DNA from: Sphingobacterium sp. T2
Lineage (GTDB): Bacteria > Bacteroidota > Bacteroidia > Sphingobacteriales > Sphingobacteriaceae
DNA: 52,447 bases
Assembly (NCBI RefSeq): GCF_000814685.1
Contig: NZ_JXAC01000081.1
Span: 1-52,447 of the forward strand
Reading direction: 5' to 3'
Shown here: positions 8,171-16,119 of the stretch, piece by piece
Numbering within the stretch: position 1 is the first letter of the stretch
Layout: every line of letters starts with the position of its first letter
The notes under the pieces: generated by a model
What the model saw: only the letters and a program-made list of their open reading frames with translations
Database searches by the model: none
What the model was told of the DNA's origin: nothing
Translations under genes and position numbers: made by a program

Positions 8171-10428
8171 ATGGAACATTTTCTTTATTTGGTAATCATT
8201 ACTTTAGCGGTATTGGCCATCATAGACCTGATGGTCGGCGTGAGCAATGATGCTGTAAACTTCCTGAACTCCGGTTTGGGTTCCAAAGCTCTTTCATTCC
8301 GCACCATCATGATCCTAGCAACAGCGGGAATACTATTTGGTGCCGTATTTTCCAGTGGTATGATGGAAATTGCCCGTAGCGGCATTTATGTTCCCAGCAT
8401 GTTCTCCTTCAATGATGTCATTGTCATCTTTTTAGCGGTGATGATGACAGATATTATCCTGCTGGACATTTTCAACTATTTCGGACTTCCAACCTCTACC
8501 ACCGTTTCCATAGTGTTTGAGTTATTAGGTGGAGCGGTCAGCCTAGCCGTCTATAAGATCGTTACCAACAATGACAGCTGGACGACCCTGCCCAATTATA
8601 TAAATACGGAGAAAGCATCGGAAATAGTCGTCAGTATATTGCTGTCGGTAGCCATCTCCTTCACCTTGGGGATGATTATTCAATATCTCTCTCGTGTCAT
8701 TTTCACCTTTCAATTCGACAAGAGAGATAAAAAAATTCGGTTCTTTTTTCGGGGGGATTGCATTGGCGTTGATTTCTTATTTTATCCTCATCAAAGGATT
8801 AAAATCTGTAAGTTTTATTAGCCAGGACGCCCAGGTCTGGATTCATGAGCACGAGCTTATGCTTTTAGGCGGTAGCTTTATATTCTTCATCATACTAAGT
8901 TTTGTTTTTATCAAACTTCAATTAAATATCTTCAAAATCATTATCGGCGTCGGCACGTTTGGTTTGGCTCTTTCTTTTGCCGGCAATGACTTGGTGAATT
9001 TTATAGGGGTTCCCATAGCAGCCATTCAATCTATAGAAATCTTCAAATCGTCGGGAGGAGATCCGAACACCTTTATGATGACTCCTCTTGCCTCTTCGGA
9101 TATAGTAGCCCCTATGTGGATACTTTTCATCAGTGGGCTTATAATGGTATTTACTTTGTGGACTTCCAAGAAGGCCAGAACCGTTATCGAGACGGAGATG
9201 AGCTTAAGCAGTCAAGATGCTTCTACCGAAAAGTTTGAGCCCAACCTACTGTCTAAATGGATAGTGCGCTTCTTTGTCAATTTGGGAAATCTACTTTCGT
9301 ACATTGTCCCTCGTTCCTTGCAAGTAAAATTAGACAGACGTTTCGACAAAGTTACCTCCATAGAAAAAACATCTTCTGATGCTCCCATGTTTGACATGGT
9401 ACGTGCTTCAGTAAATCTTACTGTGGCCAGCAGTCTTATCGCCTTAGGAACCTCTCTTAAGCTTCCTCTGTCAACGACGTATGTAACGTTTATGGTAGCT
9501 ATGGGTACGGCCTTTGCGGACCGTGCGTGGGACCGTGAGTCCGCCGTTTATAGGGTTTCAGGTGTGTTTCATGTCATCGGTGGATGGTTTGTTACGGCAG
9601 GATGTGCTTTCTTAGGCGCTTTCATCATCGCTTATCTTCTCAAGATCGGAGGCATAATAAGTTTTGTCTTGGCATTGATAGCCTTGGCTATTCTATTGCT
9701 TCAGAATGCTCGAAGTCATCGCCGTAAGATTGCAGAACAAGCAACAAAAAAGTTGCAGCTGGAAAAATCAGATATCCGTTCGCTGCAACAGGTTACGGAA
9801 GCTAGCGCCACGCAAATTGCAGAGGTCATAGCCAAAACCAACCTTTTTTATCAAAGTGTCATTGACGACCTTGTAAAAATGGACCTTACCAACTTGGCAA
9901 ACCATAAAAAGCTGATCAAGAAATTAAACAAGGAGTTGGACTCTACCAACGACAATCTTTATAAGTTTATCCGTAACCTAGACGATACTTCTGCCAAGGC
10001 AAGCCGCTACTACATCATCTCTTTGGGGTACTTACAGGATATTGTGGAAAATCTCTATAACATCGGCAGCAATGCCCACAATCATGTGGACAACAATCAC
10101 AAACCACTCCGTGAATCCAAAGGAAAACACTTGTTTCTCGTGGGCGCACAGCTCAGTGATTGGTATGCTGAGATATACAACATGTATAAGCGTTTAGATT
10201 TTACCAATATAGACACCGTCATCAAAAAAACGCGACAAGATACAGCAGACGATAAATACCCTTATGGATCAGGAAATAGAATATATACGCACTAGCGACA
10301 CAAGTCCTAAAAATACCAAACTCTATTTCGCCATATTGCTGGAAACAAACGAAATGATAAGCTCTACCTTCAAACTTTTGCGCTTGCATAAGGAATTCCT
10401 AGAATTCAAAAGAGCCAACAGCAACTGA
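8171..10428 (+). CDS. Inorganic phosphate (PiT) permease with C-terminal PhoU-like domain, two frameshifts
   Basis: A PiT-family low-affinity phosphate transporter of about 752 residues. The N-terminal repeat has VGVSNDAVNFLNS and GLPTSTTVS; the second repeat has SFAGNDLVNFIG and LPLSTTYVTF. These paired ND and PTSTT-type signatures define the family. About 500 residues of membrane domain are followed by some 240 hydrophilic helical residues resembling a PhoU-like regulatory tail. There are two breaks. A 7-A run at 8729-8735 should be 6 A, giving KKFGSFFGGIALALISY. CCC at 10259-10261 should be CC, which extends the protein through EIEYIRTSDTSPKN to a TGA at 10426-10428. Both are probable consensus errors. 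Confidence 0.9.
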
Positions 10429-10452
10429 TAATCCATACACATACACTATCGA

Positions 10453-10493
10453 ACCGCATTATTTCAGAGAGAAATAATGCGGTTTTTCTTTTT
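10453..10493 (+). terminator. Terminator after the phosphate permease gene
   Basis: The 13-base arms ACCGCATTATTTC and GAAATAATGCGGT enclose an AGAGA loop, followed by a T-rich tract. Confidence 0.9.
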
Positions 10494-10621
10494 CGTTAAG
10501 TCTTAAGTTACATCTTGACAATATTTATTTAGATTATTAATTTGGAGACTTGTTAATCAAATTTAGACTTAACAACATTTTTTAAACGGTATTAGTTTGG
10601 ACTATTAATTCAGTTTAGATT

Positions 10622-11479
10622 ATGTTAACCCAGTTATCAAACTTAAAGAACTATCGAATCATTAGAGCTTTATTCGTCTTAGTATGTCTTGTTTTGGGTG
10701 TTTCGGCACACACCTTAGCTCAGAATCAAAACAAAAAGAAAAGTGCTTTTACATCACGCTTACTCAATGTTGCCGGTACGACCAATGAAACTTTCCGGTA
10801 TAATAGCACATTGACCAACGGTAAGCCTTTTACGCAAAACTACAGCCTCTCGGCGAAGCTTCCGGCAGGATGGCAGGTTATATTCCGTGCGGAAGGTGTT
10901 TCCGTTACAGCACTACAGGTAGATTCAAACGCTACCAAAGATATCACAATAGAAATTACATGCCCTGCCACTACTAAACCGGACACATACAAAATCCCGG
11001 TACAGGCTATTTCTTCTGCCGACACATTAACCTTGGACTTAGAAGCTGTGGTGCGCGGTTCTTATGGATTGGAAATCACCACACCTACAGGTCGTCTTAG
11101 CGACCAAATCGTAGCTGGGGGCAGCAAAGAAATATTATTGGAAGTAAAAAATACCGGAACACTTCCTCTAAACACATTGGAGCTTTCTTCACAACTACCT
11201 ACAAAATGGGAAACAAGCTTCTCGCCTAGCAATATTGAGCAGCTGCAGCCAGGACAAAAAGCAGACGTAAAGGTTACTTTGAAAGTTCCTGATAAGACCA
11301 TTGCCGGTGACTATGTATCGAAAATGATTGTGAGAACGAGCAATCATGAAACCACAGCAGAAGCAAGCATCCGTATTACGGTAAAAACTTCTATCCTTTC
11401 AGGATGGATTGGTATTCTGATCATCCTAGCTGCTGCAGGTTTAATTTATTATCTCATCCGCAAATACGGAAGAAGATAA
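10622..11479 (+). CDS. Exported, membrane-anchored NEW3-domain protein
   Basis: A 285-residue protein with a signal peptide (hydrophobic stretch at about residues 16-32 ending near AHTLAQ). Two beta-sandwich repeats of the NEW3 type (alpha-galactosidase-associated) follow: the first near residues 45-145 with KLPAGWQVIF, the second near 155-255 with ELSSQLPTKWETSF and GQKADVKVTLKVP. A C-terminal transmembrane helix (about 260-280) ends in a basic tail. It is thus anchored in the inner membrane with the sandwich domains in the periplasm. It precedes an ABC ATPase by 37 bases and an ABC-2 permease, so it probably serves as the periplasmic part of that transporter. The upstream region repeats a TTTAGA(C/T)T motif three times. 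Confidence 0.82.
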   Translation: MLTQLSNLKNYRIIRALFVLVCLVLGVSAHTLAQNQNKKKSAFTSRLLNVAGTTNETFRYNSTLTNGKPFTQNYSLSAKLPAGWQVIFRAEGVSVTALQVDSNATKDITIEITCPATTKPDTYKIPVQAISSADTLTLDLEAVVRGSYGLEITTPTGRLSDQIVAGGSKEILLEVKNTGTLPLNTLELSSQLPTKWETSFSPSNIEQLQPGQKADVKVTLKVPDKTIAGDYVSKMIVRTSNHETTAEASIRITVKTSILSGWIGILIILAAAGLIYYLIRKYGRR

Positions 11480-11516
11480 TATAAAACACATAGTCAAACT
11501 TAAAACCATATATCGC

Positions 11517-12497
11517 ATGAACAATCCTATCATTGAGTTGACGGATTTAACGAAGTGTTATGGGAAAAAGACCGCGGTCGACAGACTGAACCTTAAAATA
11601 TATTCCGGAGAAATATTTGGATTGCTGGGTCCTAACGGGGCGGGAAAGACAACCAGCATCTTGATGATGTTGGGGCTTACGGAGCCCACCTCTGGCACGG
11701 CCACCATTTGTGGTTACAATGCTACGCGCAATCCTTTGCAGGTTAAGAAGCTCGTAGGCTATCTACCAGACAATGTGGGGTTCTATCCAGACATGACCGC
11801 TGTAGAGAATCTATGCTTCATAGCTCAGCTGAACGGGTTAGCGGAAGAAGAAGCTAAAAAGTCTGCCAAGGAGCTTTTGGAAGTGGTAGGACTGGAAGCT
11901 AACAGCGACAGCAAAACTGGAACTTTCTCACGCGGGATGAAGCAACGATTAGGACTTGCGGAAGTGCTTATCAAGAAGCCTAAAGTGATAATTCTGGATG
12001 AGCCTACACTAGGAATAGACCCTAGCGGTGTCAACGAATTCTTGGAGCTTATCCAACGCCTAAGCCGTGAGCAAAAACTTACCGTATTGATGTCTTCACA
12101 TCATCTCCATCAGGTGCAGCGCGTATGCGACCGCGTAGGGATATTCGTAGACGGCAAGATGATCGTGGAAGGACCGATAGACTCGTTGGCACAAAAGCTA
12201 CAGATGCACGAAGGTTTCAAAACCGTAATTCAGCTTGCTAGTGAGATCGAAAACCCTACCGTACTTGAAAAAGCACTTCAGGATATTGAAGGATATAAAT
12301 CTTTATCGGTAAAGCAAGATACCCTGCATGTACTGGCATCTAAAGATATCACCGCGGAAGCAGTACGCGCTTTAGTATATCAAAATGCCAACATCGTTTC
12401 GGTACAAAGAAACGGATATTCCTTAGATGATATCTACAGCAAATATTTCGAAAGTAGTAATCAGAGAGAAGTGAAACATGAAAGAAAACGTAAATAA
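11517..12497 (+). CDS. ABC transporter ATP-binding protein (CcmA/NatA/NosF-like)
   Basis: A 326-residue cytoplasmic ATPase. Walker A is GPNGAGKTT at residues 38-46, the signature loop is FSRGMKQRLGLA, Walker B is VIILDEPTLGID, and the switch His follows in SSHHLHQ. The extra C-terminal domain of about 90 residues is normal for ATPases of ABC-2 exporters such as NatA, NosF and GldA. It lies between the NEW3 protein and the permease; its 3' end overlaps the permease start by 20 bases. The exported substrate is not evident. Confidence 0.9.
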   Translation: MNNPIIELTDLTKCYGKKTAVDRLNLKIYSGEIFGLLGPNGAGKTTSILMMLGLTEPTSGTATICGYNATRNPLQVKKLVGYLPDNVGFYPDMTAVENLCFIAQLNGLAEEEAKKSAKELLEVVGLEANSDSKTGTFSRGMKQRLGLAEVLIKKPKVIILDEPTLGIDPSGVNEFLELIQRLSREQKLTVLMSSHHLHQVQRVCDRVGIFVDGKMIVEGPIDSLAQKLQMHEGFKTVIQLASEIENPTVLEKALQDIEGYKSLSVKQDTLHVLASKDITAEAVRALVYQNANIVSVQRNGYSLDDIYSKYFESSNQREVKHERKRK

Positions 12498-13504
12498 TTT
12501 TTTTAAAAATATCTTCAACCCTGATGGGAGCTCTACGGGAAAATCGGCATTCCCTCCTACCCCCATGAAGGTGCTTATTCGCAAGGAAATAGGATCTCAT
12601 ATCCGTAGCTGGCGCTTTATTATCCTCATCGCACTTATCGTGCTTACCTTCGGTGCCTCCCTCTTCGTGTCCTTTTCGGGGCTAAGAGAAACTATCAACA
12701 ATGCCCAAGATCCGGATAGTGCTTTTGTATACCTAAAGCTCTTGACTACCAGCGATAACTCTATTCCTCCCTTTCATATATTCCTCAACTTCTTAGCTCC
12801 CTTACTGGGTATAGCCTTAGGATTTGATGCTATCAATTCTGAGCAGAATGGGGGGACGCTGACACGTCTTGTGGCACAACCGCTTTATCGTGACAACCTC
12901 ATTCTTAGTAAGTTCTTCGCTCCTCTTATTATCGTAAGTGTGCTTTTTACTTCACTATGTATGCTTATGATAGGAGCCGGAATTATTACAACAGGAATTA
13001 ATATAGAATGGCAGGAAGTGGTCCGTATTAGTGGATTCATTATCATCAGCATCATCTATGTAGCTTTTTGGTTGAGTCTGTCGATACTGTTGTCCATAGT
13101 TTTCCGTTCAGGGAGCCACCTCTGCACTGACAGCGATAGGAATATGGTTATTCTTCACCGTATTCTTTCCTATAGTAATCAACCTTATCATACGACCTTT
13201 CATCCCAAATCCGAATTATATTTCGGAACAGGAATATTTAGCGTGGAATAACCTTATCTTGAATCTATTGCGTCTGTCGCCAAGCCAACTGTATACGGAT
13301 GCTACGACGACAATTCTGATGCCTTCCGTACGAAGCCTTGGCCCTGTATCAATAGAACAAATGATAGGTGCTATACCTTCACCGCTTTCGTTCAAAGACA
13401 GCCTGATGATTATATGGCCTCAGCTGACAGGAATTACAGCAGCCATGATGGTGTGCTTTGCGCTGTCCTACTTCGTATTTATGCGAAGAGAAATACGTTG
13501 TTAA
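12478..13504 (+). CDS. ABC-2 type permease, one frameshift
   Basis: A reconstructed protein of about 342 residues with six or so hydrophobic segments, of the NosY/GldF-like ABC-2 family. The first helix is near residues 43-62, and the LAPLLGIALGFDAIN segment before EQNGGTLTRLVAQPLYRD is characteristic. The frame breaks at 13111-13113: TCAGGGAGCC should be TCAGGAGCC to give SGATSALTAIGIWLFF, which then continues in the second frame (PIVINLIIRPFIPNPNY) to the TAA at 13504. It overlaps the ATPase gene, completing a three-gene cassette with the NEW3 protein. A symmetric terminator follows. Confidence 0.85.
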
Positions 13505-13534: not shown

Positions 13535-13566
13535 AAAAAAGCGATGAGTAATTCATCGCTTTTTTC
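13535..13566. terminator. Bidirectional terminator between the ABC cassette and atpG
   Basis: AAAAAAGCGATGA and TCATCGCTTTTTT form a 13-bp perfect stem around GTAAT, with T-tracts readable on both strands between two convergent operons. Confidence 0.9.
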
Positions 13567-14545: not shown

Positions 14546-16119
14546 TTAATATTTTGAAGCTAATTCTTTAGCTACTTTTTCTAATACTTCAGTTAACTCA
14601 TCCGAGAATTTACCAGCTTTTAGAGCTGCTAACACTTCAGGATGACGTTGCTCTAATTGCGTTAAGTATTCCTCTTCGAACTGACGTACTTTCTCTACAG
14701 GAACGTTACGCAATAAGCCTTTAGTACCAGCGTAGATGATAGCAACTTGCTTTTCTACAGGTACCGGAGAGAATTGACCTTGTTTCAAGATCTCTACGTT
14801 ACGTACCCCTTTATCCAATACCGCTTTTGTTGCTGCGTCCAAATCCGAACCGAATTTAGCGAACGCTTCCAACTCACGGAATTGCGCTTGGTCAAGTTTC
14901 AATGTACCGGCAACTTTCTTCATTGATTTGATTTGTGCGTTACCACCTACACGAGATACCGAGATACCTACGTTGATCGCAGGGCGGATACCGGCATTGA
15001 ACAAGTTAGACTCTAAGAAGATCTGACCGTCAGTGATGGAAATCACGTTTGTAGGGATATAGGCTGATACGTCTCCCGCCTGAGTTTCGATGATCGGCAA
15101 CGCTGTCAATGAACCACCACCTTTTACCAAGTGTTTGATAGACTCAGGCAAGTCGTTCATATTGCGAGCAATCTCATCCGATGAGTTGATTTTCGCTGCA
15201 CGCTCTAATAGACGAGAGTGTAGGTAGAATACGTCACCAGGATAAGCTTCACGGCCAGGAGGACGTCTCAACAACAAAGACACCTCACGGTAAGCTACCG
15301 CTTGTTTTGATAAGTCATCATACACGATCAATGCAGGACGACCTGTATCGCGGAAGAACTCACCGATAGCAGCACCTGCCATTGGAGCGTAGAATTGAAG
15401 TGGAGCTGGATCAGAAGCTGAAGCAGACACTACAATAGTGTACGCCATAGCCCCTTTTTCTTCAAGGTACGTACGATGTTTGCTACAGTAGAGTTTTTCT
15501 GACCTACAGCTACATATATACAATATACTGGATTACCAGCATCGTAGAATTCTTTCTGGTTGATGATAGTGTCGATACATACCGCAGTTTTACCAGTTTG
15601 ACGGTCACCGATCACTAACTCACGTTGACCACGGCCGATAGGAATCATAGCATCAATCGCTTTGATACCTGTTTGCAAAGGCTCATTTACCGGCTGACGA
15701 AAGATTACACCCGGAGCTTTACGCTCAATAGGCATTTCATATGTCTCACCAGTGATAGGTCCTTTACCATCGATTGGTTGACCCAAAGTGTTTACAACAC
15801 GACCAAGCATACCCTCACCTACCTTAATAGATGCGATACGGTTAGTACGTTTGATGGTATCTCCTTCTTTAATTTCATCAGAAGGACCCAAAAGAACAAC
15901 ACCTACGTTGTCTTCTTCTAAGTTTAATACAATACCTTGCAATCCATTTTCGAATTCAACCAACTCACCTGATTGAACCTTTGTTAAGCCGTAAACGCGA
16001 GCGATACCGTCTCCGACTGTAAGCACGGTACCTACTTCCTCTAGTTCGGCCTCTGACTTAAAGCCTGACAATTGCTCTCTAAGAATTGCCGAAACTTCAT
16101 CTGGTCTTACCTCTATCAT
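14546..16119 (-). CDS. atpA: ATP synthase alpha subunit, one frameshift
   Basis: The non-catalytic nucleotide-binding subunit of F1, about 525 residues when reconstructed. The N-terminus [17 protein letters not shown], the P-loop [15 protein letters not shown] (about residue 170) and the later [17 protein letters not shown] and [11 protein letters not shown] regions are typical. The frame breaks at about 15463: on the coding strand ACCTTGAAGAAAAAGG should be ACCTTGGAAGAAAAAGG, giving [14 protein letters not shown], so one G is missing. An intact gene is expected because the rest of the operon is intact. It lies 54 bases after atpH. Confidence 0.95.

Follow-up and report, generated by a model that had tools for sequence, protein, structure and literature searches.

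Three adjacent genes in a 52,447-nucleotide contig of Sphingobacterium sp. T2 (NZ_JXAC01000081.1, analysed over its whole length and here called the window) form a cassette encoding a membrane-anchored NEW3 protein, an ATP-binding cassette (ABC) ATPase related to NosF and an ABC-2 permease related to NosY. The cassette is a NosDFY-type variant in which a NEW3 stalk stands in place of NosD, and we propose, with moderate confidence, that it is an envelope and protein-stress maintenance machine that acts in the manner of NosDFY, by force transmission. The set itself, which an original prediction had read from the sequence as a NEW3 protein, a NatA/NosF-like ATPase and an overlapping ABC-2 permease, is real: open reading frames (ORFs) and Pfam agree on the three genes, with NPCBM_assoc/NEW3 in the first protein, ABC_tran in the second and ABC2_membrane_2 in the third.

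The system is widespread but patchy. Among 201 Sphingobacteriales genomes the NEW3 protein was matched in 54, counting the own genome and one broken fragment, and 53 loci were retrieved from 52 genomes besides the own; a fragment in G088 (L090; expectation value (E) 3.4e-5, one stop) and the match G157:C42 (E 6.5e-4) were left out of these. Linkage, for which the original prediction had named a refuting survey in advance, was complete in all loci examined. All 53 Sphingobacteriales loci carry the NEW3, ATPase and permease genes in the same order and on the same strand, with the ATPase match beginning 5–97 bp past the NEW3 match. In a sample of the phylum, 8 of 395 genomes matched the NEW3 protein at 7e-78 or better, own included, and the other seven loci, all outside the order, hold the three genes in order, while in a sample of the class 5 of 345 genomes, own included, matched at 1e-30. 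From 72,556 plasmid records the NEW3 query retrieved 11 (one Bacteroides and ten Hyphomicrobiales, i.e. rhizobia and kin), and all 11 keep the three-gene order, the ATPase and permease each being in two pieces in L216. The permease query of the plasmids returned the same 11 records and one archaeal plasmid, pMETHO01 (L270), which holds several ABC-2 permeases, hypothetical proteins and one ATPase, one of the permeases being a distant relative (28.9%). On the Bacteroides finegoldii plasmid record (L213) the cassette and the genes for a histidine kinase and an OmpR-type regulator point towards each other, and PepSY-like genes are found upstream.

Kinship to NosDFY, which had been suspected at a distance, was borne out for both ABC subunits. 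The ATPase carries the motifs Walker A (GPNGAGKT), signature (SRGMKQR), Walker B (VIILDEP) and an H-loop, and its best solved match over the whole protein, C-terminal domain included, is NosF (residues 6–315 to NosF 4–299, E 6.5e-46); ABCA proteins and 1vpl score higher, but across a shorter stretch. For the permease, queried with the N-terminal ORF of the window, NosY was the sole sequence match in the PDB (4.6e-5). The permease fold was modelled on an intact relative (L037; predicted local distance difference test (pLDDT) 76.7), which is 73% identical to the window in the aligned permease. With this model, the top 11 Foldseek rows were all NosDFY or NosFY chains, and NosY gave a VIA Z of 24.4 (rmsd 2.5 Å, 248 residues), with the next family at 19.5. 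No NosD family was found among the matches of the NEW3 protein, which offers beta-sandwiches and a transmembrane (TM) helix instead of the NosD beta-helix. The likeness to NosDFY thus consists of a NosF-type ATPase along its full length, a NosY-fold permease and a partner on the periplasmic side, whereas the partner itself is here a TM-anchored NEW3 protein with a YGRR tail, and the setting in many cassette relatives appears to be one of stress rather than one of denitrification, no search for nosZ or nosL having been made. NosDFY works by force transmission.

Three other readings draw on the same comparisons. In the first, the cassette is a true exporter of a lipid, a glycan or a small toxic compound; the NEW3 protein would act as acceptor or adaptor in the periplasm, and stress control would reflect the damage done by the compound. 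Matches to the ABC-2 fold include, below NosY, lipid and drug exporters (ABCG, ABCA, PmtCD), the ABCA lipid transporters are the top sequence matches of the ATPase over their shorter stretch, and NEW3 was named from a glycosidase; against this, NosY outranks every other fold. The first Foldseek match after NosY was PmtCD, the phenol-soluble modulin exporter, which shares the ABC-2 exporter fold at a lower score. PmtCD is not known to have a NEW3 partner, and its substrate is a gram-positive peptide. In the second reading, the cassette is a NosDFY-like cofactor or enzyme-assembly machine that matures one periplasmic metalloenzyme, as the NosF and NosY matches would suit, although NEW3 takes the place of NosD. 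The third, a GldAFG-like transporter related to gliding or to type IX secretion, we regard as very improbable. Its likeness to the cassette, a NatA-type ATPase with an ABC-2 permease in Bacteroidota, is only distant: the GldA model matched the ATPase with 216.2 bits against a cut-off of 402.6, the GldF model matched the N-terminal ORF of the split permease gene with 17.8 bits against 288.5, family-model searches gave no GldG or ABC_transp_aux match to the NEW3 protein or the window cassette, and the cassette also occurs in rhizobia. In one genome both sets stand in tandem: in L125 (4611–12028), GldA-, GldF- and GldG-like genes and a DUF4340 gene immediately precede the NEW3 cassette in the same orientation.

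The NEW3 protein has the anatomy that had been predicted for it, with Pfam and AlphaFold2 in agreement. An N-terminal signal peptide is followed by two NPCBM_assoc/NEW3 stretches (E 6.7e-24), a C-terminal TM helix and a KYGRR tail, and the model (pLDDT 89.9) shows two runs of beta-strands, in keeping with the two Pfam domains, and places the C-terminal helix at residues 258–282. Three NEW3 domains occur in some relatives, as Pfam showed for L125 and L214. A fold search returned many immunoglobulin-like (Ig-like) matches, with TM-scores of at most 0.41 among the 50 listed and no functional lead. The most conserved part of the protein is its extreme C-terminal tail: the mean share of the commonest residue is 0.97 in residues 280–285 compared with 0.59–0.61 in the NEW3 domains. 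Among 61 Bacteroidota proteins, G261 and G264 of the TM helix are invariant, and the exact C-terminus is YGRR in 59 and FGRR in two. An RYGRR tail is likewise present in all ten rhizobial proteins, which align to the window protein at only about 27–33%. Because the signal peptide precedes the NEW3 domains and these are followed by the C-terminal helix and tail, the order of parts suggests that the Ig domains are periplasmic, that the membrane is crossed once and that the tail is cytoplasmic.

A different role for this end of the protein would be that of a sorting signal (motif, TM segment and basic tail) cut by a sortase-like enzyme, which would make the link to the ABC genes secondary. The NEW3 protein does have a G-W-x-G motif before its TM segment and basic end, an arrangement that resembles tripartite sorting signals, and it weakly matches the PACE-CTERM S-layer model (8.2e-5; 21.5 bits compared with 110). 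Conservation, however, peaks in the extreme tail itself, and the ABC linkage is complete; a sortase-like gene was not searched for. We consider such a signal highly unlikely.

Genes of protein quality control accompany some of the cassettes. On the rhizobial plasmids, a DegQ/Do protease gene is found near the cassette in seven of ten cases, immediately upstream in six, and flanks of 9 kb contain GroESL in six of ten and Hsp20 in six of ten. Such stress islands were seen in L214, L215, L216, L218, L220, L222 and L223, some of them also with DnaJ/CbpM and DUF982 genes. Among the Bacteroidota, 9 of 56 loci have an Hsp20-like gene no more than about 9 kb from the cassette (Pfam was run on L041 and L121); five of the nine are similar Sphingobacterium loci with this gene two genes upstream, and in L121 groESL is divergent from the cassette. 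Near several cassettes, a gene for a protein of about 95 amino acids is paired with Hsp20 (L041, 10125–10415; L121, 4842–5129).

The flanks of the cassette vary, and this variation bears on what it might transport or assemble. When the neighbour families of the 56 loci were clustered and the 40 most frequent labelled by eye, most neighbours being without model annotation, the most frequent family outside the cassette was near 12 of 56 loci, and no glycan or biosynthetic family stood out. A short-chain dehydrogenase family occurred near 12 of 56 loci at varied distances, and a UbiX-like, cofactor-related gene follows the cassette in four loci of one group. Export of a polysaccharide, lipid or cofactor, as the original prediction had suggested, was not supported by these neighbours, and the context points to stress and envelope biogenesis instead; glycan or cofactor export was lowered as the lead idea, because the clustering placed families of that sort near a few loci at most. 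Taken with this dearth of biosynthetic families, and with the protein-quality and outer-membrane-assembly genes that the rhizobial islands and the shared box described below contain, the exporter reading appears possible but doubtful. Similarly, with no family beside more than 12 of 56 cassettes there is no constant partner enzyme next door, a distant partner gene not having been looked for, and we regard the maturation of one periplasmic metalloenzyme as distinctly improbable.

Within the Bacteroidota, the stress context extends to a shared sequence element. Upstream of many cassettes lies a direct repeat with a 10-bp period, TGTTAAA-N3-TGTTAAA (the box), which was found at no more than one mismatch within 300 bp upstream of 30 of 61 cassettes, or about half, compared with 2 of 61 for the reversed control and none in 1,220 single-base shuffles; the 61 include L057, which has only 29 bp upstream. 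Moving two doubtful starts raises the count to 32 of 61 (L074 at −85, L089 at −96), the reversed control figure belonging to the original starts. In L037, one of the 30, the box is reversed and farther out (−170). Of 31 regex-matched boxes, 26 are followed by a TTG 4–5 bp later. In whole-genome scans, the exact A3 form has 15 sites in six genomes (control 0), at the cassette in five of the six and between htrA and dapF in five of the six; with one mismatch, there were 39 sites in three genomes (control 1). The N3 form gave 20 sites in three genomes (control 0) and 33 sites in four genomes without a NEW3 match (control 3).

Genes of the envelope and its upkeep recur behind these sites. Over ten genomes and 88 sites, which exclude three G003 sites, the G193 cassette site, and G100, G102 and G140 (exact form only), the gene after the box was recurrently HtrA-like (8), an RprX-like kinase (7), a SusC-like TonB receptor (7) or bamA (4 genomes), and more rarely that of BamD, an FKBP, or an M13 or S8 peptidase (1–2 each). 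HtrA, BamA (POTRA), BamD, FKBP and the peptidases were confirmed on examples by Pfam or NCBIfam. For small secreted proteins encoded next to boxes in L187 and L188, a Spy/CpxP-like identity was dropped, since the resemblance was by eye and Pfam gave no match. In the own genome, the box precedes htrA and a TonB receptor and not the cassette; the regulon is therefore wider than the cassette, which would be an optional member. From its sites in L193, L181, L198, L201, L164, L205 and other loci, the box outlines what appears to be an envelope-stress-like regulon of Sphingobacteriaceae, cassette-less genomes included. No description of this regulon was present among the literature matches listed, as judged by titles and abstract starts, the motif not having been searched as text. 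By different routes, operon-like islands in rhizobia and a shared box in Bacteroidota, the two phyla thus point the same way.

A candidate regulator is encoded beside the box. A gene for an OmpR-type regulator comes after the boxed kinase gene in the four genomes checked, and for the one regulator tested (G058, L207) the best NCBIfam match is RprY. This likeness to RprXY comes with a difference, as the score of 309.5 bits is below the model cut-off of 370, RprY still being the best family by 134 bits (next family 175.7). Homologues of this kinase and regulator also flank a sister NEW3-ABC cassette (regulator 53–54% in L134). The sister cassettes (L127–L139) encode NEW3 proteins of about 500 amino acids and usually longer permeases (470–490 amino acids). 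All 13 loci have an ATPase gene close by in the same orientation, and in six of them a histidine kinase and a regulator diverge directly from the cassette; in L132, the one locus tested, there is a PDZ protein. An intergenic box at two mismatches or fewer is present in only 2 of 13 sister loci (L131, L134), and it is therefore not a general feature of the sister class. RprY of P. gingivalis binds its own promoter and those of groES, dnaK and clpB (PMC3646045). That paper does not use the words motif, consensus or binding site and hence offers no RprY site for comparison with the box. An RprY-like protein may be what binds TGTTAAA-N3-TGTTAAA.

Several observations weigh against an envelope-stress role or narrow its reach. 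The cassette of the window has no box (best match at four mismatches), its close relatives L038–L050 are at three to five, and six of the seven loci outside the order are at three or more, L121 being at two; among the ten genomes scanned, the box is at the cassette in three of the six that bear one. Genes unrelated to the envelope recur at the box: in 7 of the 10 genomes dapF is found opposite htrA, and in 6 of the 10 a small protein with a type IX secretion system tail has a KUP potassium transporter opposite it. At 29 of the 88 sites, no gene belongs to a labelled class. The labels were chosen once the sites had been seen and the stringency of the scan differed between genomes, so that the tallies are a description and not an enrichment test. 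On the rhizobial side, three of the ten plasmids are without any chaperone or DegQ gene. The P. gingivalis regulator seems to be a repressor (PMC3646045). Finally, the patchy spread makes the cassette accessory, and the loci share descent, which means that the counts are not independent.

With these points weighed, we favour the maintenance machine, which could work as follows. The three proteins would form a complex, with the place of NosD taken by a type I membrane protein whose NEW3 (Ig-like) stalk would stand in the periplasm, followed by a TM helix and, in the cytoplasm, the near-invariant YGRR tail. The NosF-like ATPase would bind and hydrolyse ATP and so drive the NosY-like permease, and the movement of the permease would be passed on to the NEW3 stalk, docked via its TM helix and tail. 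Alongside HtrA/DegQ, BAM and chaperones, such a machine would serve envelope upkeep during heat or protein-folding stress, and not the export of a sugar or cofactor. Candidate clients are a misfolded envelope protein, a lipoprotein or a lipid. The box-less copy of the window may have the same role. A more specific version, which we put forward tentatively and consider unlikely, is ATP-powered periplasmic quality control, in which the NEW3 stalk would carry the mechanical work of the NosFY-like motor to envelope proteins that are misfolded or mis-assembled, so that these are remodelled or extracted and handed to HtrA/DegQ or BAM.

The features of the cassette and its surroundings in the window are collected in Table 1. 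Its framing by terminators agrees with what had been predicted, with a strong hairpin upstream and, downstream, an inverted repeat preceding the convergent ATP synthase genes; the terminator-hairpin scan of the region did not flag the latter, and the region has six terminator-like sites compared with 2.8 (sd 1.5) in shuffles. The predicted overlap of permease and ATPase genes also holds, the permease starting 20 bp inside the ATPase gene, but the permease is not one ORF here, being split by a frameshift. In relatives it is a single ORF of 318–373 amino acids (21 rows, with alignment across the broken stretch). Because atpA (14546–16119) and the PHO4-family phosphate transporter gene (8171–10295) in the window are also split, each into two overlapping ORFs, assembly indels are favoured over gene decay. 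The own assembly comprises 3.04 Mb in 326 contigs.

Table 1 Features of the NEW3-ABC cassette and its flanks in the window
Feature	Position	Strand	Basis or detail
PHO4-family gene terminator-like hairpin	10451..10485	+	15 pairs, loop 5, T-rich tail
Bacteroidota-type promoter-like pair	10515..10544	+	TTG 10515-10517, 19 bp, TTAATTTG 10537-10544
Conserved 5' leader up to ATG	10569..10621	+	includes TTTAGATT 10614-10621; kept in relatives
NEW3 protein ORF, 285 aa	10622..11479	+	ORF list, Pfam, AlphaFold2
C-terminal TM helix codons (residues 258-282)	11393..11467	+	AlphaFold2 helix
KYGRR tail codons (residues 281-285)	11462..11476	+	tail conservation
NosF-like ABC ATPase ORF, 326 aa	11517..12497	+	Walker A, signature, Walker B, H-loop motifs
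NosY-like ABC-2 permease, interrupted	12478..13504	+	ORFs 12478-13251 and 13259-13504
Inverted repeat, A6/T6 flanks, probable bidirectional terminator	13535..13565	.	read from sequence

Upstream of the NEW3 gene, the second half of the promoter-like pair, TTAATTTG, matches TAnnTTTG, which we take to be the Bacteroidota promoter consensus, at 7 of 8 positions, and a similar pair is aligned in relatives. The final ~50 nt before the ATG are conserved over four genus labels (g1, g2, g3, g9), and the adjoining signal peptide is not. A sequence-only model of this leader (R1), built partly from these same loci, had the cassette as its sole strong match in all six genomes scanned (own genome: window 5.9e-7, next best 0.0055); as no second strong copy was found in them, there is no leader regulon. 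The leader may instead be a site of translational or RNA-level control, and Rfam gave nothing credible upstream of the cassette (best E 2.2, with 20.6 bits where the gathering score is 85). The repeated TTTAGA(C/T)T motif noted in the original prediction is in excess locally, with three copies in 136 bp (reached by 3 of 5,000 dinucleotide shuffles), but not over the whole window, where nine copies compare with 7.4 expected and 35 of 100 shuffles reach nine. Only the copy touching the ATG, TTTAGATT, is conserved, in similar form and within the larger leader, and the motif was rejected as a repeated operator.

How folding and repair are powered in the ATP-free periplasm is an open question. Among the literature matches listed, no paper on a NEW3-ATPase-permease system was recognised by title or abstract start. 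Here, a compact and conserved ABC module combines a NosFY core that looks force-transmitting with a new stalk and keeps, in many relatives from two phyla, the company of HtrA/DegQ, BAM and chaperone genes, and a system that had been annotated without a substrate now has a first testable role. The quality-control motor, if true, would represent an energy source for proteostasis in the periplasm, where ATP is absent.

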